From positions 1-64,000 of the forward strand of contig QZKV01000156.1 of assembly GCA_003599575.1 (NCBI GenBank): 64,000 nucleotides of DNA, read 5' to 3'. Below are positions 3,866 to 16,079 of this stretch, in pieces. Both the position numbers and the translations under genes were made by a program. This DNA comes from Desulfobacteraceae bacterium (lineage in GTDB: Bacteria; Desulfobacterota; Desulfobacteria; Desulfobacterales; Desulfosarcinaceae). Numbering within the stretch: the first letter of the stretch is position 1; the number at the start of each line of letters is the position of its first letter. Under the pieces are notes generated by a model. That model did no database searches. It saw only the letters and a list, made by a program, of their open reading frames with translations, and was not told where the DNA came from.

Positions 3866-3940
3866 CGATTCGTCGAATCGGTGAGCTCCTGCGGATAGGA
3901 CGTACTGCATGTTTAACCGGTTTAACGATTCGATGAATCG
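3866..3940. repeat. Pair of near-identical 15-bp palindromes
   Basis: CGATTCGTCGAATCG (3866-3880) and CGATTCGATGAATCG (3926-3940) have 6-bp arms and differ only in the 3-nt centre, 60 bp apart start to start. The second overlaps the last codons of the GldG-like gene and the first lies in the short gap before the DUF4340 gene. Function unknown; could be mRNA processing or stabilising hairpins, or protein-binding sites. Confidence 0.6.
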
Positions 3941-6147
3941 CCTGTTTTGCGAACCTCAAACATGCGCTGGATTTTCTTGGCGTGCGCATGGCGCCGTGTC
4001 CAGACCAGCAATCCAAAGAGGATCACCGCAATCGGCAAGCCTGCGATATTGAGGCTTTTGATGATGTTTTTGGTCTCCGGGCCGGTCGGATCCAGGGGAT
4101 TGAAGCTCTGTTCCTTGCTGCGCATGACGGCCACATCCTCACGACCGTTCAGGGCGTCGATCATGTTCATCACGAACATGGTATTGGGGCTTTGCCCGTT
4201 TTCATCCATCAGTTGATCACCGATCATCTTGGATGAGGCCATGACGAATATCTTGGCCGGTGCGCTCTGCTCGCGGCGCATGCCCTCGCCCCGAATCAGG
4301 GAAACATCGCCCGAAGGCCTGCCGCCGTCCGGTCCGGTTTGGGCATCCGTCTGCTGATCTTGCGCGGTGTTTTCCTGGGGCGTGGCCGGCTTTTCCGGCA
4401 TGGGCTGACCCTTGAAGTAGCTCTCGAAAGAACCTTCCAGCAGGTAGGCCAGGGGCCGCCGGGCCATTTCGTCCGCTGCGGGCGGCTGAATGAACATCGG
4501 ATTCAAGATGATGCGGTCGCGCATCTCCCAGGAGCGCTCAGAGGATGAAAAAAGTTTGTAGGCCTCGATCTTCTGTTCGGAGACACGTTTGTCATTCAGC
4601 TCAAGGGGTGAAATTTCCAAAGCGATCAAGCCCTTGATGTTCTTCAGGTATTCCAGTTGACTGGTAATGTTGTTCTTTTCGATGATCGGCGCAAAGTAGA
4701 TGGGTTGCTCGCCGCCGCCCTGCTGAGGGGATCTGCGCTGGCGATAACTCTTTTCATCCATGACGATGGCTTGCTTGATGCGCACGCCGTAATGCTCCAG
4801 CAATTTTTCCAGGCCGGTATCCAGGGGAACATACGTCGGCATCTGGTTGGCCATAAACGGCTGGTTCTGCGCCTGTTTTTGTTCGAAGGCATCCACAAAC
4901 AGCGCCAGATTGGTGCCGCGCATCAGCGCCTGGTCGATCTGATACAGGGCGTAGTCGGACAATTTTTCAGTCGGTCGCGCGATCAGAAGGCATTTAAGGC
5001 CATTGGGAACAGGGTCTTTTTCCAGGTCGATGGCTTTGACGGTATAGGTCTTGTTCAGCAGATTGCCCAGCCGATCCAGCGACCCATCCTGCGGCCCCAG
5101 TGGGTTGCCGCCGCCGATGTCCAGAGTGCCGTAATCGGCCAGATAGCCCAGTTCCTCATTGATGTTAATCAGGCGGTCGAGGTTGGTGTTGATCAAATCC
5201 TCGAGTTGATCGAGCGCGGTCAGTTGGTACTGTTCGCCGAAGATGGGCAGGCGCATCACATGCAGCAATGGAATTTCGCGGGTCTTGTCTTTGTATTGCA
5301 GCAGCATGCCGATGATGCCTTCGCCCGCGGCGATGTTGGACTTGGCAATATCCGGCCATTTCAGATGCATCAGCTTGGAGGTCCGTAACCGTTCGGTTTC
5401 GGCCGCCTCCGCACTGGGATCGATGCGCTTGAATTCCAGTTTGTTGTAATTTCTCGTATTCAGTCGCCCGATCATCTCCTTGATGCGCTCCGGATATTGA
5501 TCCAGCTCCTGCAGTCCCATGAAAGGGGCCACTTTGTAGATGGAGGAGGATAGGACCAGGTCCACCTTGATCTTGTCGTCCAAAGCGAGCAGGGCGCTGA
5601 CTTTGTGATTGAGCTTTTGTATGGCCGTCGTCAATTTGTACTCAAGACCCTCGGTGGAGGTGATCGTGGGGATGCGTTCGATGATATCGCCGTGAATGAT
5701 CACCAGCCCCATGTAAGCCTGCTTGAATTTAAGTTCATCTTGTTCGAGGATTTGAATCTGCACCGGATGGATACCGTAATCGCGGGCCGTCTGCTGATTG
5801 CTGTGGGCCGTTTCGCTGATGCCTTCGGTTTCCGCGCTGACATTGTAAAACTGGACCTGGAAGTATTTTTTGTTGTTCTGCGCGTACTCGCTGAGAAGAT
5901 CGTGCAGGTACAGCTCGGTGGTGTTGTGCGGCGCAGGCAGGTCCCTGGTGAAGAAAACCTTGACGGTCAGCGGTTCGGTCAGCGTGCCGGCCACCTTCTT
6001 GCTGATGGCGGAAAGCGAGTAGGTTTTGTTGGTGGTCAAATCGGCTCTGAAGAAAAAGCTTACCCCGGCCAGATTGATCAACACGACGACCAGTGCGTAG
6101 AGTGCGAATTTGATGTATTTGGCGTATTTTTGTGCGTTCGCGTTCAT
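3922..6147 (-). CDS. GldG-like ABC transport system extracytoplasmic protein
   Basis: A 741-aa protein of the GldG / ABC-type uncharacterised transport family. It has one N-terminal membrane segment (about 13-33), a large extracytoplasmic region beginning with the family pattern LTTNKTYSLSAISKKV, a Gln/Pro/Asp-rich linker near residues 590-620, and a C-terminal membrane segment (about 700-716) with a positively charged tail. The start has an AAAGGAAG ribosome site. It lies 15 nt after the permease gene. In Bacteroidota GldG belongs to the gliding machinery, but homologues are widespread in non-gliding bacteria, so a general envelope role is more likely. The substrate is not known. Confidence 0.85.
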   Translation of the reverse strand: MNANAQKYAKYIKFALYALVVVLINLAGVSFFFRADLTTNKTYSLSAISKKVAGTLTEPLTVKVFFTRDLPAPHNTTELYLHDLLSEYAQNNKKYFQVQFYNVSAETEGISETAHSNQQTARDYGIHPVQIQILEQDELKFKQAYMGLVIIHGDIIERIPTITSTEGLEYKLTTAIQKLNHKVSALLALDDKIKVDLVLSSSIYKVAPFMGLQELDQYPERIKEMIGRLNTRNYNKLEFKRIDPSAEAAETERLRTSKLMHLKWPDIAKSNIAAGEGIIGMLLQYKDKTREIPLLHVMRLPIFGEQYQLTALDQLEDLINTNLDRLININEELGYLADYGTLDIGGGNPLGPQDGSLDRLGNLLNKTYTVKAIDLEKDPVPNGLKCLLIARPTEKLSDYALYQIDQALMRGTNLALFVDAFEQKQAQNQPFMANQMPTYVPLDTGLEKLLEHYGVRIKQAIVMDEKSYRQRRSPQQGGGEQPIYFAPIIEKNNITSQLEYLKNIKGLIALEISPLELNDKRVSEQKIEAYKLFSSSERSWEMRDRIILNPMFIQPPAADEMARRPLAYLLEGSFESYFKGQPMPEKPATPQENTAQDQQTDAQTGPDGGRPSGDVSLIRGEGMRREQSAPAKIFVMASSKMIGDQLMDENGQSPNTMFVMNMIDALNGREDVAVMRSKEQSFNPLDPTGPETKNIIKSLNIAGLPIAVILFGLLVWTRRHAHAKKIQRMFEVRKTGDSSNR

Positions 6148-6162
6148 TGCTTCTTCCTTTGG

Positions 6163-6864
6163 CTACTTTTCTTCCATGACCAGATGGGTAGCGTATAACC
6201 CCAAAAAGACGATGCTGACGAAATAGAGGATATCGCGTGAGTCGACGATCCCCTTGGCGATGTTTTTAAAGTGGGCATCGGCACTGATATAGGCGATCAC
6301 ATCCAGAAGGAACTGCGGGAAGAAAAAGAGCATTTGATCGACAATCGCCAGCCCCACGCAGACCACCATGGCTACAATGCAGGCCACGATCTGGCTGCGC
6401 GTCAGCGCCGAAGCGAACAGGCCGATGGCGGCGTAGGCCCCCCCAAGGAAAACGGCGCCGATGTACCCGCCGATGGCGGCGCCCCAATCCAGATCACCGA
6501 CAAAGCTGATGAAGATCGCATAAGAAAGCGTGGGAAGCAAAATCGCCGCCACGAATGCCAGGGCAGCCATGAACTTGCCCACGATGATATCGCGAAAGGT
6601 GACCGGCAGTGTGAACAGCAGTTCCCAGGAGCCCACGTTGAGCTCCTCTGAAAACAGGCGCATGGTGATGATGGGCACCACCAGCGCGAATAAAAAAGGC
6701 AGCAGATTGAAAAAACGTCTTAAATCCGCCTGGTCATAGAGAAAGAAAGAAGAGAAAAAGAGCCATCCCGTTACGATCAGAAAGATGGCGATGACGATAT
6801 AGGCAATCGGCGAAATGAAGTAGTCTTTGAACTCTTTTTTGAATATGAGCACGGCTTGGCGCAT
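6163..6864 (-). CDS. ABC transporter permease, ABC-2 / GldF type
   Basis: A 233-aa integral membrane protein with about six hydrophobic segments, typical of the ABC-2/GldF permease family. The conserved N-terminal pattern (FKKEFKDYFISPIAYIV) and the LFSEELNVGSWELLFTLPVT cytoplasmic motif are visible. The ATG lies 1 nt beyond the stop of the ATPase gene and has a GGGAG ribosome site inside that gene's end, so it is co-translated with it. It forms the membrane channel of the transporter with the ATPase and GldG-like protein. Confidence 0.9.
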   Translation of the reverse strand: MRQAVLIFKKEFKDYFISPIAYIVIAIFLIVTGWLFFSSFFLYDQADLRRFFNLLPFLFALVVPIITMRLFSEELNVGSWELLFTLPVTFRDIIVGKFMAALAFVAAILLPTLSYAIFISFVGDLDWGAAIGGYIGAVFLGGAYAAIGLFASALTRSQIVACIVAMVVCVGLAIVDQMLFFFPQFLLDVIAYISADAHFKNIAKGIVDSRDILYFVSIVFLGLYATHLVMEEK

Positions 6865-6865
6865 A

Positions 6866-7804
6866 TCAATTCTCCCTGGTCAACTCTCGGAATATGGATT
6901 CAAGGGTTTGGTTTTCACGGATCAATTCCACCAGGATCCAGTCGGTGGCCTTGATGGCCGCATACAGGTCGGCGCGGATGTCGTCTGCCGAAGCGCAGAG
7001 CACATTGAATCTGGTCAACCCCGGGTCCTCGCCGTTCGCGGCGGTCACATCGTTCACACCGCGCACCGCTTTCAAGCGGGCGCATACGATCCCGGCGTCA
7101 GCGCGCAATAAACCGATTTGGATGCGGTTTGCGTGGTTCCCGCGGGCCGTCAGCTCCTGCGTGCCGCCGTCGGCGATGATGCGGCCTTTGTTGATGATGA
7201 TGACACGGTCGCAGGTGGCTTCCGCTTCGCTCAGAATGTGCGTTGATAGAATGACGGTTTTGCGTTCGCCGATCTTGCGGATGATTTCCCTGATTTCCAC
7301 GATCTGGTTGGGATCGAGTCCGGAGGTCGGCTCGTCCAGGATCAGGATTTCCGGATCGCTCATCATGGCGTGGGCCAGCCCGACCCGCTGTTTTAATCCT
7401 TTGGACAGCGTATCGATGGTTTTATGCATGATCTCGCGCAGCCCGCACATGTCGGCCAGCACGGCCAGCCGGTTTTTCCTGGCGTCGCCCTCAAGGCCGC
7501 GAACCCGGGCCACATGGTCCAGGTAATCGTAGACGAGCATGCTTTTGTATAGAGGCGCCGATTCGGGCAGATAACCGATGAGGCGCTTGATTGCCAGGGC
7601 ATCCTGGTGAATGGAGAAATCCTTGACGCGGATGTCGCCGGCCGATGGAGGGAAATAGCCGGTCAGCATTCGCAGCGTGGTTGTTTTTCCCGCACCGTTG
7701 GGCCCCAGCAACCCGACAATCTCGCCCCCTTTGATGTCAAGATCGATGTGGTCCACGGCGCAAAAGCCGTCGTAGTATTTGGTCAACCCCTCAACATGAA
7801 TCAT
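6866..7804 (-). CDS. ABC transporter ATP-binding protein, GldA type
   Basis: A 312-aa ABC ATPase. Walker A is GPNGAGKT (residues 34-41), the signature is the variant LSKGLKQRVG, and Walker B is ILILDEPTSGLDP. The C-terminal ~80 residues form the extra domain seen in GldA/CcmA-type exporter ATPases. A strong ribosome site (AAGGAGGAGG) precedes the ATG. First gene of the four-gene operon, transcribed from the promoter at 7966-7994. Confidence 0.92.
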   Translation of the reverse strand: MIHVEGLTKYYDGFCAVDHIDLDIKGGEIVGLLGPNGAGKTTTLRMLTGYFPPSAGDIRVKDFSIHQDALAIKRLIGYLPESAPLYKSMLVYDYLDHVARVRGLEGDARKNRLAVLADMCGLREIMHKTIDTLSKGLKQRVGLAHAMMSDPEILILDEPTSGLDPNQIVEIREIIRKIGERKTVILSTHILSEAEATCDRVIIINKGRIIADGGTQELTARGNHANRIQIGLLRADAGIVCARLKAVRGVNDVTAANGEDPGLTRFNVLCASADDIRADLYAAIKATDWILVELIRENQTLESIFRELTREN

Positions 7805-7965
7805 AAGCCTCCTCCTTGGCTGTTCCGAATGGTGCTGGTCTTGCCCTGGTTACAAACATGATGCAACGGGTTTTGCAGAGCGGCTGTGGGAGTGGCAGTC
7901 AGGCAATACGCCTGTTGCAAGCCGCCGCGATGCTCAAGCGCCTGTGGGCTAGCTCCGGAACGGGT

Positions 7966-7994
7966 TTAATAATTGAAAACAACGCCCATGTCAA
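7966..7994 (-). promoter_or_regulatory. Sigma-70 promoter of the ABC/GldG operon
   Basis: On the minus strand TTGACA is separated by exactly 17 nt from TATTAA. This gives a predicted transcript start near 7959 and a leader of about 155 nt before the ATPase ATG at 7804. Nothing else is recognisable in the 7805-8105 gap. Confidence 0.7.
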
Positions 7995-8105
7995 CCCACT
8001 GAAATTTGTCAAATAGTAGCATCATCGCGTCTTTCAATCGGCAAATCTTCGGATTCGTCTGGCTTGTCGGGCTGTTGGTTGATTCAAAGATGCAACCGGG
8101 GAAAA

Positions 8106-8396
8106 TCATCTATTTTGCGAAACCTCATACCAAGGCCCTTGGATGCGCGAGGTTTTACAGCGCGGGCAGCGGCTGGGAGGAGAGAGGCGCCGGCGGTCTT
8201 TAAACTCGTATCCGCATCCTTCGCAGCGGGCCGGCCGCACGCGGAGACGGCCGCCGCGGCCGGCCACCGATTTGGCGATATGGGGCAGGTGAATGACGGT
8301 TTCCTTCTCGCGGATGCCCAGGGCCTGAGAGATGGCCACAACATCCATGGGTTGTCGTTCCAGCAAGGCAATGATCTGTTGTCGGATGGTTCCCAT
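8106..8396 (-). CDS. HTH domain / zinc-ribbon protein (COG3357-like predicted regulator)
   Basis: A 96-aa protein with an N-terminal winged-helix-like half (residues 3-45, IRQQIIALLERQPMDVVAIS) and a C-terminal zinc ribbon with cysteines 58, 61, 77 and 80 (CEGC and CPRC). This is the layout of a small predicted transcriptional regulator family. The start at 8396 is 7 nt after the phosphatase stop, without a clear Shine-Dalgarno, so reinitiation is likely; an in-frame ATG at 8438 would overlap the phosphatase gene. The target is unknown. Confidence 0.75.
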   Translation of the reverse strand: MGTIRQQIIALLERQPMDVVAISQALGIREKETVIHLPHIAKSVAGRGGRLRVRPARCEGCGYEFKDRRRLSPPSRCPRCKTSRIQGPWYEVSQNR

Positions 8397-8403
8397 GCGC
8401 GGT

Positions 8404-8886
8404 TTATATTTTCTTGCCGATGGATGTGAACACGTCATCGAGTTCTTCGACCAGGGCTACAATGCAAGGACGCATAATTTCAATGCACAGCAAGTAGGAC
8501 TCGAGCGGGCCGCCATAGGGGTCTTCCACCTCCGACCCCTCGAGTGCGGGACCGAAATCGGTCAGCAGTTTTGCATGCGATTTGCTCCAGCGCAGCATCC
8601 GGCGGACCACATTCAGGTGATATTGTTCCATGGTCAGGATGAAGCCCGCGCGGCGTACCATGTCGCGATCGAGCTGGCGTGCCCGATGATGGCTGATATC
8701 GATGCCCAGGCGGGACATGGCCTCGACCGCCATAGGCGCTGCCTGGTGACCGTGAATTGCGTTGGTTCCGCCGGAACTGACCGAGATGCGGTTTTGCAGT
8801 TTCGGCGGCATGAGATGGCGCAGCAGTCCGGCGGCCATGGGGCTGCGGCAGATATTGCCCGTACAGACCATGAGAATTTCGAACAT
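8404..8886 (-). CDS. Low-molecular-weight protein-tyrosine phosphatase
   Basis: A 160-aa phosphatase of the arsenate reductase/LMW-PTP fold. The P-loop CTGNICRS carries the catalytic cysteine (C8) and arginine (R14), and the general acid is in the DP motif (D122-P123) followed by a tyrosine-containing segment. It could dephosphorylate tyrosine kinases of envelope polysaccharide export or other proteins; no such kinase is nearby. It forms an operon with the HTH/Zn-ribbon gene and is divergent from the response regulator gene. Confidence 0.9.
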   Translation of the reverse strand: MFEILMVCTGNICRSPMAAGLLRHLMPPKLQNRISVSSGGTNAIHGHQAAPMAVEAMSRLGIDISHHRARQLDRDMVRRAGFILTMEQYHLNVVRRMLRWSKSHAKLLTDFGPALEGSEVEDPYGGPLESYLLCIEIMRPCIVALVEELDDVFTSIGKKI

Positions 8887-9042
8887 CGGATGGATCCTTT
8901 ACCTGATGTTGGGTTTTGTTCTCTTCAACCGGCCGCTGCCGCGCCCTATCTCTTGTAATTCAGGCTTTCCGACCTGTCAACGCGCCAATCCCCTGAATAC
9001 GGTTGGACAGCAACGTTCAAATCGCACTCAACCTGATCTTCC

Positions 9043-9071
9043 TTGATCTTTGTGCCATGCTCTATTATATA
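9043..9071 (+). promoter_or_regulatory. Sigma-70 promoter of the NtrC-like regulator gene
   Basis: TTGATC, 17 nt, TATATA. The predicted start near 9078 leaves a leader of about 195 nt before the ATG at 9273. The -10 box is inside a perfect palindrome (9059-9075). The 8887-9272 gap holds no gene. Confidence 0.6.
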
Positions 9072-9075
9072 GAGC
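9059..9075. promoter_or_regulatory. Palindrome over the -10 box, candidate operator
   Basis: GCTCTAT-TAT-ATAGAGC is a perfect inverted repeat with 7-bp arms. It covers the plus-strand -10 box and also contains TATAAT on the minus strand, facing the phosphatase operon. A dimeric regulator bound here could control both directions. Inferred from symmetry and position only. Confidence 0.45.
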
Positions 9076-9272
9076 TCTATGCCGATACCGGTCCGCATGC
9101 GGGTCCAGCGTTACCTCTTGAGCCGGAGTTTACCTGAAAAGCGGCTCATCAGGAAAAAATCATGCGAGCCACTCTGCGCCCAGGTACCAATGAAGTGCGT
9201 GGTGTTTCAAGTCTTAGCGTTAACCCGATTACCTTTGTTCCCTGGAATTTCATATTGCTATTGGAGTCAAGC

Positions 9273-10418
9273 ATGAAGCCCTGTCGCATTCTTTTTGTCG
9301 ACGACGACAAAGATATACTCATGATGGTGGAACAGTACCTTCAAATGCAAGGCTATGATATCACAACAGTAAGCAGCGGTCTGAAAGCCCTGGACGTGGT
9401 CAAGGACCGGGATATCGATATCATTTTCACCGATTACAAGATGCCCGAATTCAACGGCCTGGAATTGTTGGCGGCCGTAAAAAAATACAAGCCCGAAATC
9501 GAGGTGATAGTCGTTACCGGATACGGTTCCATGGAATCGGCCATTCAGGCGATGAAATTCGGCAGCTATGATTATCTGCAAAAACCTTTCAAGCTGGACC
9601 ACCTCAAACTGATCATCGACCGGATTACCGAAGAAAAAAAAGTGAAGGACAAATCCAGTTTGATCCGCAAGCGCGGCCGGGAACGCCACAAGTTCGAGGG
9701 ATTGGTCGGCATCAGCGCCCGCATGCAGCAAATATATGAATTGATTGAGACCGTCAGCCGCCAAAGTCCCATGGTGCTGATTCAGGGCGAAAGCGGTACC
9801 GGCAAGGAACTGGTGGCGCGTACCGTTCATCAGCTCAGCGATCGCCGTCAAAACGCCTTTGTGCCGGTCAATTGCAGCGGCATCACCGAAGGTCTGCCCG
9901 AAGCGGACGTGGTCCCCCATGTCACCGCCCTGATGCAGAAAGTGCATGGCGGTACGATTTATCTGGATGAAATCGCGGAGTTGGCGCCCTCTTTGCGGCT
10001 TTCCATTCTGCAGGCGCTGGAAGCCCGCCAGAATGATAAGGAAAACCTCACCCGTGTCATTGCCGCTACCAGCAAAGAGTTGTCCGATGTAATTGCCAGT
10101 GGCGCGCTGAAGAAAGATTTCTTCGACCTGCTCAACGCCGTGGTGATCCGCATGCCGCCGCTGCGCGAACGTCCTGAAGACATCTGCCTGCTGATCAACC
10201 ATTTCATTCACCAGGCCTGCGCCAAACACAATCGGCGCATCATCGGCGTTTCGCCCGATGCCCTGGATATACTGATGCGTTATTTCTGGCCCGGCAACCT
10301 CATCCAATTGCAGAACGTCATAGAGCGGGCATTGGCCCTGGGCGTCGACGAGGCGATTCAGCCCGCCGACTTGCCGGCGGAGATCCAGACTTTCTCGACC
10401 ATCTCCAAGATGAGTTAG
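9273..10418 (+). CDS. Degenerate NtrC-family response regulator (no GAFTGA, no HTH)
   Basis: A 381-aa protein with an intact receiver domain (acidic residues 10-12, phospho-acceptor D54, T82, K104) and an AAA+ sigma-54-activator domain. Walker A GESGTGKE (172-179) and Walker B GGTIYLDEI (226-234) are intact. Between N200 and Walker B only about 25 residues remain, so the GAFTGA loop that contacts sigma-54 is missing. The two arginine-finger positions read K and L (LKKDFFDLL, 280-288), and there is no C-terminal Fis-type HTH. The start at 9273 was chosen over an upstream frame because of the TTGGAG ribosome site. It probably acts by protein-protein contacts, not as a standard sigma-54 activator. 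Confidence 0.88.
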   Translation: MKPCRILFVDDDKDILMMVEQYLQMQGYDITTVSSGLKALDVVKDRDIDIIFTDYKMPEFNGLELLAAVKKYKPEIEVIVVTGYGSMESAIQAMKFGSYDYLQKPFKLDHLKLIIDRITEEKKVKDKSSLIRKRGRERHKFEGLVGISARMQQIYELIETVSRQSPMVLIQGESGTGKELVARTVHQLSDRRQNAFVPVNCSGITEGLPEADVVPHVTALMQKVHGGTIYLDEIAELAPSLRLSILQALEARQNDKENLTRVIAATSKELSDVIASGALKKDFFDLLNAVVIRMPPLRERPEDICLLINHFIHQACAKHNRRIIGVSPDALDILMRYFWPGNLIQLQNVIERALALGVDEAIQPADLPAEIQTFSTISKMS

Positions 10419-10460
10419 AAGTGGTTTCACAGCCTCCCCGGGAACACGATATCTGCGTTG

Positions 10461-10572: not shown

Positions 10573-12225
10573 ATGCCCGACATTCTTCTTATCCAGCCGC
10601 CCATCGAGGATTTCTATTTTACGGCCAAACGCAGCCTGCCCTATGGATTGGCCGGCATTGCGGGGGCATTGCGGCAGGCCGGCTTCAGCGTGGCCCTGCT
10701 GGATGCCCTGGCCACGCCCAAAAGCCGCGTCCTGCCGTGGCCGGATGAAATGGCTCATTTGCATCCCTTTTTCGGCCGCTCCGATCGGTCACCCTTTGCC
10801 CTTTTCCATAAGTGGCGTCATTTCGGGTACAGCCTTGAGCACATCGCAAGGCAGTCCAAAGCATCGGGCGCTTTTCTGATCGGCATTTCCTCCCTTTTCA
10901 GCGCTTACGCGGAAACGGCGCTGGCGACAGCCGCGGTTGTCAAGGCAGCCTGTCCCCGGGCGCTCGTCGTGCTCGGCGGACATCATCCCAGTGCGCTGCC
11001 CGGTGAGGTCATGCGGTATCCGGCCGTGGATTACGTCCTGCGCGGCGACGGCGAAGTGGGATTGCCCCCGCTGGCCCGGGCCCTGCGCGACGGCAGCGAG
11101 CTGCACAGCGTTCCCGGTCTGGTGCGGCGCCGGCCCGACGGGTCTTTGCATCAAAATCCGACCGCATTCGCGGCGGACTTGAACCGCCTGCCGATGCCCG
11201 CTTTCGACCTCCTCGATTGGGGCTTCTACCGCCGGGCAGACCGGTCCTCCGCGGCGATCAGTGCCGGCCGGGGATGCCCGCAACGCTGCACCTATTGCGC
11301 GGTCAACACCGCCGGCGGCCACGCTTACCGCTGTCGCAGCGTGGCCGGCGTGCTGGCCGAACTGGAAGAGATCGACCGGATCGCCCCGCTGGGCTTTATC
11401 GATTTTGAGGATGAACATCTGTCCCTTGACCGTAGCTGGTTTATAGATCTGCTGACGGCCATCCAGCACCGTTTTGCGCAGCGGCGCATCGAACTGCGCG
11501 CCATGAACGGTCTGTTTGCGCCCAGTCTGGATGAAGAACTGATCGGGCGCATGCAGCAGGCCGGTTTTAAAACACTTAACCTGGCCTTGATCACCACCTC
11601 CGCGGCCCAACTCAGGCGCTTTCAGCGCCCTGACCTGAGCCAGGACGTGGATCGGGTGCTGCATCTGGCCGGCCGGCGGAAAATGAATGCCGTGGTCTAT
11701 CTCATGGTGGCGGGGCCGGGCCAAGATCCCTATGCCGGGGTGGCCGACTTGCTTTTTCTGGCACAGCGGCGGGTATTGGCAGGCGTTTCGGTCTTTTACC
11801 CGGCACCCGGAAGCCTCGATTATGAATGGTGTGCGCGCCACGGCCTGCTCCCGTCCGCCTTCCGCCTGATGCGCGCCACGGCGCTGCCGCTCGCGCACAT
11901 CACCGATCGCATCCAAACGGTAACCCTGCTGCGCCTGGGCCGGGTGCTCAATTTCATGAAGCATCTGCTCGATGCCGGCATCGGCCTGCCGGTCCCCGAC
12001 CGGCCTCCCGCGGTCTTGCCGGCTAAAGTCGAACGCCTTGCGCTGGGCCGAATTTTGCTGGCCGCCTTTTTACACGACGGCATCATCCGCGGTCTGGATG
12101 ACGAAGGCAGGATTTACCCCCATCGCATCGACACGGGTCTGACGCGCGCGTTCCTCGACGGACTGGCCGGAGTCCAACTTAAGGGAGCTTCATCGGCCGG
12201 CAGTTTTCTCCCGCCGAGCCGCTGA
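10573..12225 (+). CDS. B12-binding-type radical SAM protein
   Basis: A 550-aa protein with an N-terminal cobalamin-binding-like Rossmann region (about 1-175, with LPYGLAGIAGALRQAG and VVLGGHHPSALP) and a radical SAM TIM barrel whose cluster motif CPQRCTYC has cysteines 235, 239 and 242. The histidine motif DxHxxG used for base-off B12 binding is not seen, so actual cobalamin binding is doubtful. Members include methyltransferases and ring-forming enzymes; the substrate cannot be read from the sequence. It stands alone, after a long hairpin, without tailoring-enzyme neighbours. Confidence 0.85.
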   Translation: MPDILLIQPPIEDFYFTAKRSLPYGLAGIAGALRQAGFSVALLDALATPKSRVLPWPDEMAHLHPFFGRSDRSPFALFHKWRHFGYSLEHIARQSKASGAFLIGISSLFSAYAETALATAAVVKAACPRALVVLGGHHPSALPGEVMRYPAVDYVLRGDGEVGLPPLARALRDGSELHSVPGLVRRRPDGSLHQNPTAFAADLNRLPMPAFDLLDWGFYRRADRSSAAISAGRGCPQRCTYCAVNTAGGHAYRCRSVAGVLAELEEIDRIAPLGFIDFEDEHLSLDRSWFIDLLTAIQHRFAQRRIELRAMNGLFAPSLDEELIGRMQQAGFKTLNLALITTSAAQLRRFQRPDLSQDVDRVLHLAGRRKMNAVVYLMVAGPGQDPYAGVADLLFLAQRRVLAGVSVFYPAPGSLDYEWCARHGLLPSAFRLMRATALPLAHITDRIQTVTLLRLGRVLNFMKHLLDAGIGLPVPDRPPAVLPAKVERLALGRILLAAFLHDGIIRGLDDEGRIYPHRIDTGLTRAFLDGLAGVQLKGASSAGSFLPPSR

Positions 12226-12444: not shown

Positions 12445-13008
12445 TCAAGCTTGCGGGCCAACCACCCTGCCGAGATGATCGGTTAGTTGCGCGGGCTCGA
12501 AGGTCAGATACGCGAACAGGCGGTCTTCAAGCAGTGTGGTCTGCTCCCATACGTTCAGAAGCCATTGTTTGTGCTCGGCGGTTTTGGCATAACGCGCCAG
12601 GATGTAGTCCATGCGGTCGTCGAGGGGAACGATCCGGTCGTGGAGCACGCGTTTATCGGCATAGTTGACGACTTCGGCTTCATTGGGGGTGTCACCGGCA
12701 AAATAGGCATCCAGAATGACATGCTGCCGGACGATGTGGCCCACTTCGGGATACCCGAGATCGGTCAGATATTCGCCGCCCGTGCGGGAGTGATTCTCGC
12801 CGGTTTTAAAGCTGCGCGGTTTGGTGATGTCGTGCAACAGGGCCGACGCGTCCACCAGGGGCCTGTTCAGGCTTAGGCCGGCCGCCAGCAGCCCATCGGT
12901 GAGCAGCAAGGCAACGCGGCATACCAGTTCCGAATGGGCCAGAATATGGTCCGGCATCTGCATTTGGGCCAACATGCGCAGGCACTCTTCACGCTCGGGA
13001 AGACGCAA
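12445..13008 (-). CDS. HD-domain phosphohydrolase
   Basis: A 187-aa protein of the HD superfamily. The metal-binding pattern is visible: H25 (AHSELV), the HD pair H59-D60 (LLHDITK), H73 and D100. The start is a TTG at 13008 with a strong GGGAGG ribosome site. Small HD proteins hydrolyse phosphate esters, often of nucleotides; the natural substrate is not predictable. It stands alone and is divergent from the 2-oxoglutarate dehydrogenase operon. Confidence 0.82.
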   Translation of the reverse strand: MRLPEREECLRMLAQMQMPDHILAHSELVCRVALLLTDGLLAAGLSLNRPLVDASALLHDITKPRSFKTGENHSRTGGEYLTDLGYPEVGHIVRQHVILDAYFAGDTPNEAEVVNYADKRVLHDRIVPLDDRMDYILARYAKTAEHKQWLLNVWEQTTLLEDRLFAYLTFEPAQLTDHLGRVVGPQA

Positions 13009-13201
13009 CTTTTCCCTCCCATGTCTCAGTGGGCGATTTAATGAATCACCTTATACCCGAGGCCATGCCTTTTCGACAAGGCATTATGTCATCCGTTCAA
13101 TCGAATCTTTGCGGCCGGGCGGGCACCTCTCGATTGAAAACCAATCTTGGCTCGGGACTGAATTTTATACAGCCGGAATTGCCCATAGGCGCCCCTTTGC
13201 A

Positions 13202-13230
13202 TTGACACACCGGGGCCCTTTACTTATCAT
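13202..13230 (+). promoter_or_regulatory. Sigma-70 promoter of the odhA/odhB operon
   Basis: A consensus TTGACA is followed after 17 nt by TATCAT. The predicted start near 13237 gives a leader of about 100 nt before the E1 gene. No other feature is seen in the 13009-13340 gap. Confidence 0.72.
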
Positions 13231-13340
13231 TTTGCATCGCGTTCTTGCCTGTTCGATGCGCTTCATGACGCCAGGGAAGAACGGCTGGCGGCAGGCGTAT
13301 CCGCACCATCCCTTGCGAAACCCTTCAGAAGAACGGCACC

Positions 13341-16079
13341 ATGCAAATACCCGAAACCTTAAACCTCAGCTACCTCGAGGACCAATATCGACGATACAAA
13401 TCCGACCCGCAGTCAGTGGGCCGGGATTGGCAGTTTTTCTTTCAGGGCTTCGATATCGGTCTGCAGATACGCATTCCTCCCGCAGGAGAAACCCAGCGGG
13501 AGGCCGTCGAGGCGGGCGAAGGGCTGGTCGGCGAGCTGATCCAGCGCTACCGCCACCTCGGTCATCTGCTGGCCTGCATGGATCCGTTGAGCGAATGTCC
13601 GACCGAGCATCCCTTGCTGGATCCGGGCGCCGTGGGGTTGCGCGATGAACATCTTGAGCGTGTTTATGCAACCCCGCAACTATCCTTCATTGCTCAGGCC
13701 AGCCTGAAAGAGGTCGTTCAAATTCTCAAGCAGACCTATTGCCGCACAGTTGGGGTGGAGTTCATGCACCTGCAGGATCCCGAAGAGCGGCAATGGCTTC
13801 AGGAACGCATGGAGCCGGTGCGCAATCACCCTGCCTTCACCCCCGCGGAGCAGCGCCATATCCTGGAAAAACTGACCCAGGCGGCTATGTTCGAGAATTT
13901 TTTAAACAAGCGCTATGTCGCCGTGACCCGCTTTTCCTTGGAAGGTGGCGACGGCGTCATCCCCATGCTGGATGCTCTTTTCCGCAAGCTGGCGCAAATG
14001 GAGTGCCGCGAAGTGATCCTGGGCATGGCCCACCGCGGCCGCCTCAACGTGCAGGCCAATATTCTCAATCGACCGGCGGAAGAGATCCTGGCCGAATTTG
14101 AAAACTGCTATGACAGCAGCCAACTGGTCGGCGCGGGAGATGTAAAATACCATAAAGGATACCTGGGCGAAATCGAGCTGGGGGCCGATGGCCGTATTCA
14201 AGCCCTTCTGGTGAGCAATCCCAGCCATCTGGAAACCGTCGATCCGGTGGTGCAGGGCGCGGTGCGCGCGCGCCAGGAACCGCTGGGCGAACTGGGGCGG
14301 CGCAAAGTCGTAGCGTTGCTGCTGCACGGCGATGCGGCTTTTTCCGGCCAAGGGGTGCTTGCCGAAACGCTCAACCTGAGCCAACTCAAGGGATATGGTA
14401 CGGGCGGCACCCTCCACCTGGTCATCAACAACCAGATCGGTTACACCACCCTGCCCGATGATGCGCGCTCCACGCGCTACAGCACCGACCTGGCCAAGAT
14501 GCTGATGGTGCCGATTTTTCACGTCCACGGTGAAGATCCCGAAGCGCTGGTGCACGTCATCCGCCTGGCCGCGGAATACCGCTTCGCCTTTGGCAAGGAT
14601 GTGGTGGTGGACGTGGTCTGCTACCGGCGCTACGGGCACAATGAAGGCGACGAACCCTACTTCACCCAGCCGACCATGTATGACCGTATCCACCGCCGGC
14701 CCTCACTGCACAAGCTGTACGCCCAACAACTGACGCAAGCCGGTATCGTCACGGCCGAGGAGCTGGCCGGCCTGGAAAATGAATGCACCCGAAAATTGGA
14801 ATCGGCCTATGCGGCGGTGCACGGCAGCGCTTGTCCTTTCCCGGAAATGCGCTTTTTCAAAGGCTGGGATGAATTGACCGGCCATTACACCCACGCTCCG
14901 GCGGATACGGCCGTGCCGGCGGAGGAGCTCAACGCCCTGGCCCGGAATCTCTACCGGGTTCCGGAAGGCTTCGCCCCCCACTCCAAGATCAAGCTGCTGC
15001 TGCGGCGGCGCTTGGAAGCGCTTGAAAAGGGCAGCGGCATCGATTGGGCCAATGCGGAGGCACTGGCCTTCGCCACTCTGCTGGCCGAGGGATTCCCCAT
15101 ACGGTTGAGCGGGCAGGACAGCGCCCGGGGGACTTTCAGTCAACGGCACAGCATCCTGTACGATCGCAAAACAGGCCGTCCCTACGTGCCTTTGCATCAT
15201 GTGGACGCGACAGCCCGCTTCGATGTGTACGACAGCCCTTTGTCCGAAGCCGGTGTTCTGGGTTTCGAATACGGCTATGCCATGACCCATCCCCACGGAT
15301 TGATCCTGTGGGAAGCCCAGTTCGGGGATTTCATCAACAACGCCCAAGCCGTGGTCGATCTGTTCATCGCCAGCGGCGAAGCCAAGTGGCAGCGCTTGTG
15401 CGGTTTGACCCTGCTGCTGCCGCACGGCTGGGAGGGTCTGGGCCCTGAACATTCCAGTGCGCGCCTGGAGCGGTTCCTGCAGCTGTGCGCCGACGACAAC
15501 ATGCAGGTGTGCGATGTGACCACGCCCGCGCAGTATTTTCATTTGCTGCGCCGCCAGGCCAAGGTGTCCTACCGCAAGCCGCTGGTGCTGATGACCCCCA
15601 AAAGCCTCCTGCGCCACCCGCGCGCCGTATCAACGCTGTCCGACTTCACCCAGGGAACTTTCCGGGCGGTCCTGGATGATCCGCTCAAGCCGGAGAAGGC
15701 GACCAAAATGCTCTTCTGCAGCGGCAAGATATACTACCAGCTCCTGCAGCGACGGGAAGACCTCGCTACCGGCGACATCGCCATCATCCGCCTGGAACAA
15801 TACTATCCTTTTCCCCACGACCAACTCAAAGCCGTGCTGGCGAACTACCCCAAAGCCGAAGCCTGGGTTTGGGTTCAGGAGGCGCCTGCCAATATGGGCG
15901 CATGGCAGTTCGTGCGGCCTTATCTGGAATCCCTTGTGGGCCGTCCGCCGGCGTATGTCGGACGCAAACCGTCCCCCTCCCCGGCCACCGGCTTTCCGAA
16001 CATATACAAACTGGAGCAGGCCGCTATCTCCGATCAAGCGATAGGACCGTACGACACGGGCAGCGGTATCGCCAGCTAG
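13341..16079 (+). CDS. sucA: 2-oxoglutarate dehydrogenase E1 component
   Basis: Thiamine-diphosphate-dependent E1 that decarboxylates 2-oxoglutarate and succinylates the lipoyl group of E2. At 912 aa it has the full length of bacterial OGDH E1. Seen: N-terminal E2-binding segment (LSYLEDQYRRYKSDPQSV), GMAHRGRLNV near residue 228, the ThDP region GDAAFSGQGVLAE near 330 followed by LVINNQIGYTT, and the C-terminal LPHGWEGLGPEHSSARLERF. The ribosome site is weak (AGAAG). It is followed by the E2 gene; E3 is not adjacent. Strict anaerobes of this group often use ferredoxin-dependent 2-oxoglutarate oxidoreductase instead. Confidence 0.95.
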   Translation: MQIPETLNLSYLEDQYRRYKSDPQSVGRDWQFFFQGFDIGLQIRIPPAGETQREAVEAGEGLVGELIQRYRHLGHLLACMDPLSECPTEHPLLDPGAVGLRDEHLERVYATPQLSFIAQASLKEVVQILKQTYCRTVGVEFMHLQDPEERQWLQERMEPVRNHPAFTPAEQRHILEKLTQAAMFENFLNKRYVAVTRFSLEGGDGVIPMLDALFRKLAQMECREVILGMAHRGRLNVQANILNRPAEEILAEFENCYDSSQLVGAGDVKYHKGYLGEIELGADGRIQALLVSNPSHLETVDPVVQGAVRARQEPLGELGRRKVVALLLHGDAAFSGQGVLAETLNLSQLKGYGTGGTLHLVINNQIGYTTLPDDARSTRYSTDLAKMLMVPIFHVHGEDPEALVHVIRLAAEYRFAFGKDVVVDVVCYRRYGHNEGDEPYFTQPTMYDRIHRRPSLHKLYAQQLTQAGIVTAEELAGLENECTRKLESAYAAVHGSACPFPEMRFFKGWDELTGHYTHAPADTAVPAEELNALARNLYRVPEGFAPHSKIKLLLRRRLEALEKGSGIDWANAEALAFATLLAEGFPIRLSGQDSARGTFSQRHSILYDRKTGRPYVPLHHVDATARFDVYDSPLSEAGVLGFEYGYAMTHPHGLILWEAQFGDFINNAQAVVDLFIASGEAKWQRLCGLTLLLPHGWEGLGPEHSSARLERFLQLCADDNMQVCDVTTPAQYFHLLRRQAKVSYRKPLVLMTPKSLLRHPRAVSTLSDFTQGTFRAVLDDPLKPEKATKMLFCSGKIYYQLLQRREDLATGDIAIIRLEQYYPFPHDQLKAVLANYPKAEAWVWVQEAPANMGAWQFVRPYLESLVGRPPAYVGRKPSPSPATGFPNIYKLEQAAISDQAIGPYDTGSGIAS

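Follow-up and report, generated by a model that had tools for sequence, protein, structure and literature searches.

The window, that is, the whole stretch of 64,000 nucleotides analysed here, carries at positions 9273-10418 of the forward strand the coding sequence of a truncated NtrC-type response regulator of 381 amino acids, referred to as Q, whose start at 9273 is favoured by its orthologues over a longer alternative at 9162. The protein begins with a receiver domain (residues 6-115, positions 9288-9617; Pfam PF00072, 1.9e-28), in which the phospho-acceptor Asp D54 (9432-9434) and K104 are present and the expected acceptor Asp, Thr and Lys are all found. It continues with an AAA+ core (residues 145-297, 9705-10163) that matches the sigma-54 interaction family PF00158 over residues 145-292 (1.3e-28) and includes an intact Walker A motif, GESGTGKE (residues 172-179, 9786-9809; G172-K178), and a Walker B motif, YLDE (residues 230-233, 9960-9971), with the acidic pair D232/E233. 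An AAA+ lid domain follows (residues 298-373, 10164-10391; PF25601, 3.6e-23), and the protein closes with a conserved C-terminal end, DLPAEIxTFSxISKM (residues 366-381, 10368-10415), which matches the start of the canonical lid-HTH linker and in which a helix is predicted at residues 369-380. All of these features lie on the forward strand, and the Pfam matches of Q include no DNA-binding domain.

The best PDB sequence match of Q is NtrC1 of Aquifex aeolicus (1ny5, 4.2e-70). An AlphaFold2 model of Q (mean pLDDT 80.3, pTM 0.62) has the same entry as its best structural match (Z 26.0, 348 aligned residues, 35% identity), and the accompanying rmsd of 19.3 A is taken as a different domain arrangement in the model. 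The FleQ AAA+ domain superposes on the model at 2.4 A across 227 residues, and Brucella NtrX and VpsR are also among the structural matches.

Q is flanked by a low-molecular-weight phosphatase gene on the opposite strand and by a gene for a B12-binding radical-SAM protein (10573-12225, forward strand), the latter without an NCBIfam match at 1e-30. Only 154 bases separate the stop codon of Q from the start of this next gene, which leaves little room for a hidden HTH. The reverse-strand region upstream of Q (3922-8886) holds ABC-transporter genes (ABC_tran; ABC_transp_aux with DUF7088), a PF0610-like protein and the phosphatase, and several of these genes recur near Q in genomes of the window's family (f1). 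A search for -24/-12 sigma-54 promoters returned 36 loose matches in the window against a chance expectation of 41.4, and none in the interval 8887-9272; the idea of such a promoter at the Q gene was accordingly dropped.

Distribution and ancestry of the truncated form

Orthologues of Q with 56-90% identity were found in 10 of 10 genomes of the same genus and in 12 of 14 of the same family. In an order-level profile search of 389 genomes, 55 contained a match at the cut-off; on the basis of open-frame length and sequence reading, 48 of them were assigned the truncated form and 7 canonical forms only. The 48 comprise 28 genomes in f1 and 20 distributed across seven other families. Sequences were read for 45 of these truncated forms, the remaining three being the Q proteins of G318, G321 and G327. 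One f1 copy (L187, genome G306), whose C-terminal end diverges from the family past approximately residue 366, was excluded from the tree and the counts for this aberrant end. A phylum-wide set of 395 genomes gave 14 matches: besides G000, the truncated form was found in G517 alone, while 7 were read as canonical and five (G426, G493, G521, G547 and G571) were called canonical from open-frame length alone.

In a tree of 70 rows, the 45 truncated proteins (44 from the order plus that of G517) form one clade with support of 100/100, which fits a single origin of the truncated form. Two subclades can be distinguished. Subclade a (19 rows; support 97/87) is drawn from families f8, f15, f17, f20, f30 and f56, and subclade b (26 rows; 97/90), which holds the Q of the window, consists of 24 f1 proteins together with those of G069 (f46) and G517. 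Long branches lead to L032 and L030. L016, being near-identical to L015, was omitted from data sets A1 and A3 and retained in the tree and the counts.

Lost and retained residues

The closest canonical paralogue in the window's genome (L002) shares 51% or 48% identity with Q in two comparisons. Relative to it, Q is short of 11 residues in loop 1, including GAFTGA, and of 7 in loop 2. The residue survey covered the 45 truncated proteins, each from a separate genome, and 25 canonical or outgroup proteins as comparators. Loop 1, whose deletion junction in Q falls at 9920-9921, is 10-12 residues short in 45/45 truncated proteins and of full length in 25/25 comparators; the distance from the switch Asn (N200) to the Walker B Asp is 32 residues in Q versus 43 in every comparator. 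GAFTGA occurs in none of the 45 truncated proteins, while the strict motif is present in 23 of the 25 comparators. The second deletion (junction at 10034-10035) removes the 7 residues of loop 2 ahead of sensor I, a shortening seen in 21/26 proteins of subclade b; loop 2 is of full length in 11/19 of subclade a.

Single positions have changed as well. At sensor I the canonical Asn is replaced by Ser (S267, 10071-10073), and Asn is kept in 12/45 truncated proteins, 11 of them in subclade a. The two arginine-finger positions are occupied by Lys (K280, 10110-10112) and Leu (L286, 10128-10130); Arg is found once in 45 at each (L227 for the first, L170 for the second), compared with 25/25 comparators. 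L227 also has a full-length loop 2 and therefore looks like an intermediate. At sensor II, where all 25 comparators have Arg, Q has Ile (I344, 10302-10304), and the truncated proteins have Ile in 44 cases, Thr in one and Arg in none (0/45); the near uniformity of this Ile argues for selection over drift. An HTH is likewise found in 0/45, and Q itself ends soon after the AAA+ lid, ahead of the point at which its canonical relatives carry this domain.

Several functional residues are retained. The receiver set of three Asp, Thr and Lys is complete in 45/45 truncated proteins, as is the Walker A Lys, and the Walker B Asp and Glu and the switch Asn are kept in 41, 42 and 35 of the 45, respectively. 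The last three residues are present in all 26 proteins of subclade b, and in 15, 16 and 9 of the 19 proteins of subclade a. The preliminary description of this gene, which had reported an intact receiver, intact Walker motifs, a missing GAFTGA segment between N200 and Walker B, Lys and Leu at the arginine-finger positions and no C-terminal DNA-binding helices, is borne out on each of these points; the loop 2 deletion and the substitutions at sensors I and II add to the losses it had listed. The homologues that it had proposed to look for were found: loop 1 with GAFTGA and the HTH are absent from 45/45 truncated proteins.

Selection on the Q genes was estimated in f1 from 12 chosen, partly overlapping pairs (Nei-Gojobori), which gave a median dN/dS of 0.055. 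By domain, the medians for the same pairs were lowest in the receiver (0.027), followed by the lid (0.062) and the AAA core (0.092); dS was partly saturated, with finite values for 10 of the 12 receiver pairs. By this sequence-based measure, the Q family in f1 is under strong purifying selection. When Q and a canonical paralogue were compared in the same four genomes, receiver pN/pS was 0.063 in Q versus 0.128 in the paralogue, and AAA core pN/pS was 0.173 versus 0.100. These ratios indicate that, in Q, relative constraint has moved to the receiver at the expense of the AAA core.

The loss of so many catalytic residues could be read as a sign of a decaying gene or of an assembly error, such as the frameshift that the preliminary description had considered. 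Such an explanation is scarcely credible for a protein with 45 homologues from 45 genomes that all lack loop 1 and the HTH, with a complete receiver set in each of them and with strong purifying selection in f1; decay or frameshift was rejected on account of the conserved clade, the selection and the intact receivers. A frameshift is very unlikely in particular, because the same parts are missing from homologues in separate genomes. The suggestion that the protein has been re-purposed rather than left to decay is thus upheld by the conserved clade and the purifying selection.

Genes adjoining Q and its full-length relatives

In subclade a, Q is directly preceded, on the same strand, by a gene for a receiver-less sigma-54 activator, referred to as B. 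This arrangement was found in 17/17 testable loci, of which 14 are complete in the fetched sequence, one (L168) has a contig-cut B fragment and two (G112 and G053) were established by coordinates; L171 and L174 start close to a contig end and lie outside the 17. At the loci where it was measured, the B-Q gap is between about -1 and 134 nt, and the stop and start codons overlap in L172 and L176. Eighteen B proteins were aligned, 14 from beside truncated Q and 4 from beside canonical forms; the contig-cut B of L168 was left out of A2 and A4, and those of G112 and G053 were used in neither the alignments nor the trees. All 18 have GAFTGA, both finger Arg residues, the sensor II Arg and the HTH core without variation. 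Judged by their motifs, Q and B are complementary, Q being an input without an output and B an output without an input.

B1, a clade with support of 99/99, unites 13 of the 14 complete B genes that adjoin Q, and the copy at L057 is placed elsewhere. A B1 profile scored at least 610 bits in 15 of the 389 order genomes, all 15 of which have a truncated Q, and the next score was 565.6; as the profile was built from the 13 Q-adjacent genes themselves, this co-occurrence is independent for G140 and G229 only. The Q-adjacent B proteins of G112, G053 and G038 score 533-555 bits, within the range of flagellar B proteins. Two B-type genes are present in 14 of the 19 subclade-a genomes, and in 11 of these 19 a B gene that does not adjoin Q lies within about 5 kb of fliF on one contig. 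In our own reading, B appears FleQ-like, both by its HTH and by the place of its flagellar homologue beside flagellar genes. FliF was tested with PF08345; the other flagellar gene names and the terms FleQ-like and FlrC-like are sequence readings. A gene read from its sequence as helicase-like (c6, about 760-795 residues) lies divergently upstream of B at nine loci in families f8 and f30 (L162-L164, L167, L172, L173 and L175-L177).

Wider context was available for 17 canonical loci. In nine of them (L178-L181, L229 and L231-L234) the full-length regulator adjoins and lies upstream of B, and at L230 it stands beside a contig-cut B. The remaining seven (L184, L185, L189-L191, L228 and L235), to which the canonical paralogue of the window's genome belongs, gave no B within the fetched sequence. 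The canonical rows nearest the truncated clade (L178-L180, L229-L231 and L234) are all B-adjacent, in a part of the tree that is weakly resolved. At L229, L231 and L234, a protein of about 1,160-1,220 residues with HDOD, PAS, histidine kinase and receiver domains adjoins the canonical regulator and is a candidate for the ancestral kinase. Several canonical clusters also carry a CheX-like gene, an extra response regulator, another activator, or flgB-, flgC-, fliE- or fliF-like genes.

In subclade b, none of the 26 Q genes has a B at or above 450 bits in its fetched flanks, whose length varies between a few hundred bases and about 9 kb (in the window, 9-15 kb) and some of which are cut by a contig end. 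In G000, a B gene (567 bits; next activator 387) lies on contig C8 at 12834-13814, about 5 kb from fliF. Two f1 genomes, G012 and G017 (each 95% complete), keep Q although no FliF and no B above 500 bits turned up in them, so that Q there seems not to need B; the same result was obtained for the less complete genomes G008 and G021. G004 and G007 have FliF and gave no B above 500 bits. The flagellar B was considered as an obligate partner in the window's family and found no support, since G012 and G017 keep Q with neither FliF nor B found.

These observations also bear on the suggestion that Q serves as a phospho-dependent scaffold or signalling partner of a target other than an activator, for example the radical-SAM protein at 10573-12225 or a chemotaxis-type target. 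The lack of a linked B in the window's subclade, the Q-bearing genomes in which FliF was not found (G008, G012, G017, G020 and G021) and the receiver as the most constrained domain of Q are consistent with it, as is the position of the radical-SAM gene, which directly follows Q in 16 f1 loci and L186. Across the 49 genomes examined, however, the radical-SAM gene was found in 40: it is present in 13 of 16 genomes without Q, and no copy was found in 6 of the 33 that have Q (G012, G016, G018, G040, G104 and G112, three of them in f1). A functional link between the two genes was rejected on these counts, and their proximity is probably positional. A scaffold would, moreover, have no obvious need for an ATP pocket, yet the pocket is strictly kept in the window's subclade. 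A scaffolding role is considered unlikely.

Possible modes of action

Q shares a receiver, AAA+ core and lid with NtrC1 of A. aeolicus (1ny5) and other NtrC-family response regulators, and differs from them in lacking GAFTGA, the arginine fingers, the sensor II Arg and the HTH. According to the available part of PMC7175178, loop 1 is the contact to sigma-54, the fingers serve the neighbouring site in trans, and the sensor residues presumably read the nucleotide. Q would be unable to engage sigma-54 via loop 1, to complete the ATPase site of a neighbour, to read nucleotide via sensor II or to bind DNA through an HTH. With all of these parts gone, it most likely acts via protein contact.

At a probability of roughly 45%, Q is a phospho-controlled, probably ATP-binding and non-hydrolysing regulatory subunit that contacts an intact sigma-54 activator, along the lines of HrpR/HrpS or FleQ/FleT. 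With its receiver chemistry intact, Q would receive phosphate at D54, and its AAA+ domain would act as a non-hydrolysing, probably ATP-binding interaction module. Q would then join or cap an intact sigma-54 activator and set its activity, the contact and its sign both being presumed. In subclade a, the partner would be B, encoded just upstream, and contact is well motivated there. In the window's family, where the same reading is inferred by homology, Q would probably act on another of the genome's many activators, which is the weakest step of the proposal. Contact with an activator is favoured by the joint pattern of a receiver set and Walker A Lys kept in 45/45, each finger in 1/45 and the sensor II Arg in 0/45, and by the strict conservation of the ATP pocket in the window's subclade (26/26). 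The single clade, the purifying selection in f1, the shift of constraint toward the receiver, the upstream B of subclade a with its invariant motifs, the B1 co-occurrence and the known heteromeric activators also speak for it. On the other hand, the pocket is less well kept in subclade a, precisely where B adjoins, which disfavours a uniformly ATP-loaded subunit, and the 26 subclade-b genes have no linked B in their fetched stretches, with Q kept in G012 and G017 where no B was found. The proposal of the preliminary description that Q is a phospho-dependent binding partner or an oligomer subunit has thus become likelier through the adjoining, complementary B of the sister subclade, and it finds no such linked activator in the window's own family.

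A tentative but quite possible version of the contact reading is a split sigma-54 response regulator, in which Q would provide the phospho-input and a dead, ATP-binding AAA+ domain, and the receiver-less B would provide ATPase activity, sigma-54 contact and DNA binding in trans, the two forming a mixed AAA+ ring under a two-component signal. In the window's family, Q would have outlived B and been re-wired to another partner.

Once incorporated into a ring, a Q subunit would inactivate two sites, its own and the one that follows, and may for that reason have an inhibitory effect. As a phospho-switched anti-activator, Q would titrate or poison activator rings in a dominant-negative manner and be dispensable for activation. 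With both fingers and sensor II absent, the interfaces on either side of Q are predicted to be dead, given the motif roles outlined in the consulted part of PMC7175178, and a trans-acting negative regulator of activators, HrpV, is described in an excerpt of PMC4145663. Co-inheritance of Q with one activator gene in the sister subclade, however, fits an enabling subunit equally well, and the sequence does not reveal whether the effect is activating or inhibiting; a purely inhibitory role is somewhat doubtful.

The two-protein activators of Rhodobacter sphaeroides (FleQ/FleT) and Pseudomonas syringae (HrpR/HrpS) resemble the proposed Q/B pair in that two activator-family proteins act jointly. 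Heteromeric activators mentioned in the sources, as far as excerpted, are HrpR/HrpS, FleQ/FleT and the VnfA paralogues (PMC9542535, PMC4145663, PMC7277832), and such activators are described there as rare (PMC9542535, PMC4145663). In the same excerpts, HrpR/HrpS and FleQ/FleT are listed as functional activators without a regulatory domain (PMC9542535, PMC4145663), and FleT is said in the available text of PMC3162934 to lack both regulatory and DNA-binding domains, whereas Q has its receiver and has lost its catalytic contacts. A partner encoded alongside, as in heteromeric pairs, is found at all 17 testable subclade-a loci and at none of the 26 of subclade b in the fetched stretches, so that, unlike these pairs, Q in the window's family is not linked to a partner.

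FlgR of Helicobacter and Campylobacter and CtcC of Chlamydia are built of a receiver and an AAA+ domain, and like Q have no DNA-binding domain. Most GAFTGA-less NtrC-type regulators carry an HTH. Those on record (Caulobacter and Rhodobacter NtrC, NtrX, VpsR and HupR) share with Q a deleted or defective loop 1, as the consulted parts of PMC10274813 and PMC3162934 describe, and they bind DNA, whereas Q additionally lacks the HTH, fingers and sensor II. The absence of a DNA-binding domain from FlgR and CtcC is noted in the available text of PMC3162934, which counts both among the functional sigma-54 activators that have GAFTGA or a tolerated variant of it; Q has neither. One GAFTGA-less protein, Rhodobacter capsulatus NtrC, needs ATP binding rather than hydrolysis according to an excerpt of PMC10274813, and its existence lends some plausibility to Q as a GAFTGA-independent regulator at sigma-70 promoters, similar to that protein. 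Such regulators work through DNA binding at promoters, however, and with an HTH in 0/45 truncated proteins this role is very improbable for Q.

Single losses of these kinds are already known: the excerpted sources record activators that have no GAFTGA as well as others that have no DNA-binding domain (PMC3162934, PMC10274813), and a survey of Desulfovibrio vulgaris counted 37 activators, 25 with an exact GAFTGA and 12 with substitutions (PMC4641369, in the part available). No description of a conserved activator family that has lost all of loop 1, the fingers, sensor II and the HTH was found in the open-licence literature, as far as its text was available, which is weak evidence that the joint loss is new here. 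If Q does act by contact with an activator, a receiver-bearing dead subunit would serve as a natural experiment on the number of live subunits required in an activator ring, and would also probe the relay of phosphorylation between subunits; as paired and unpaired versions of Q exist in sister families, the idea is open to comparative testing.

For annotation, genes named from a sigma-54 interaction domain should be treated with caution, since they may encode proteins unable to activate alone. The Q gene itself was missed by a simple gene caller at four loci (L041, L043, L046 and L055), probably because of long antisense frames. A 387-residue open frame (9267-10430, reverse strand) runs antisense to the whole Q gene, and further long antisense frames occur elsewhere within the window; they look like an effect of codon bias.
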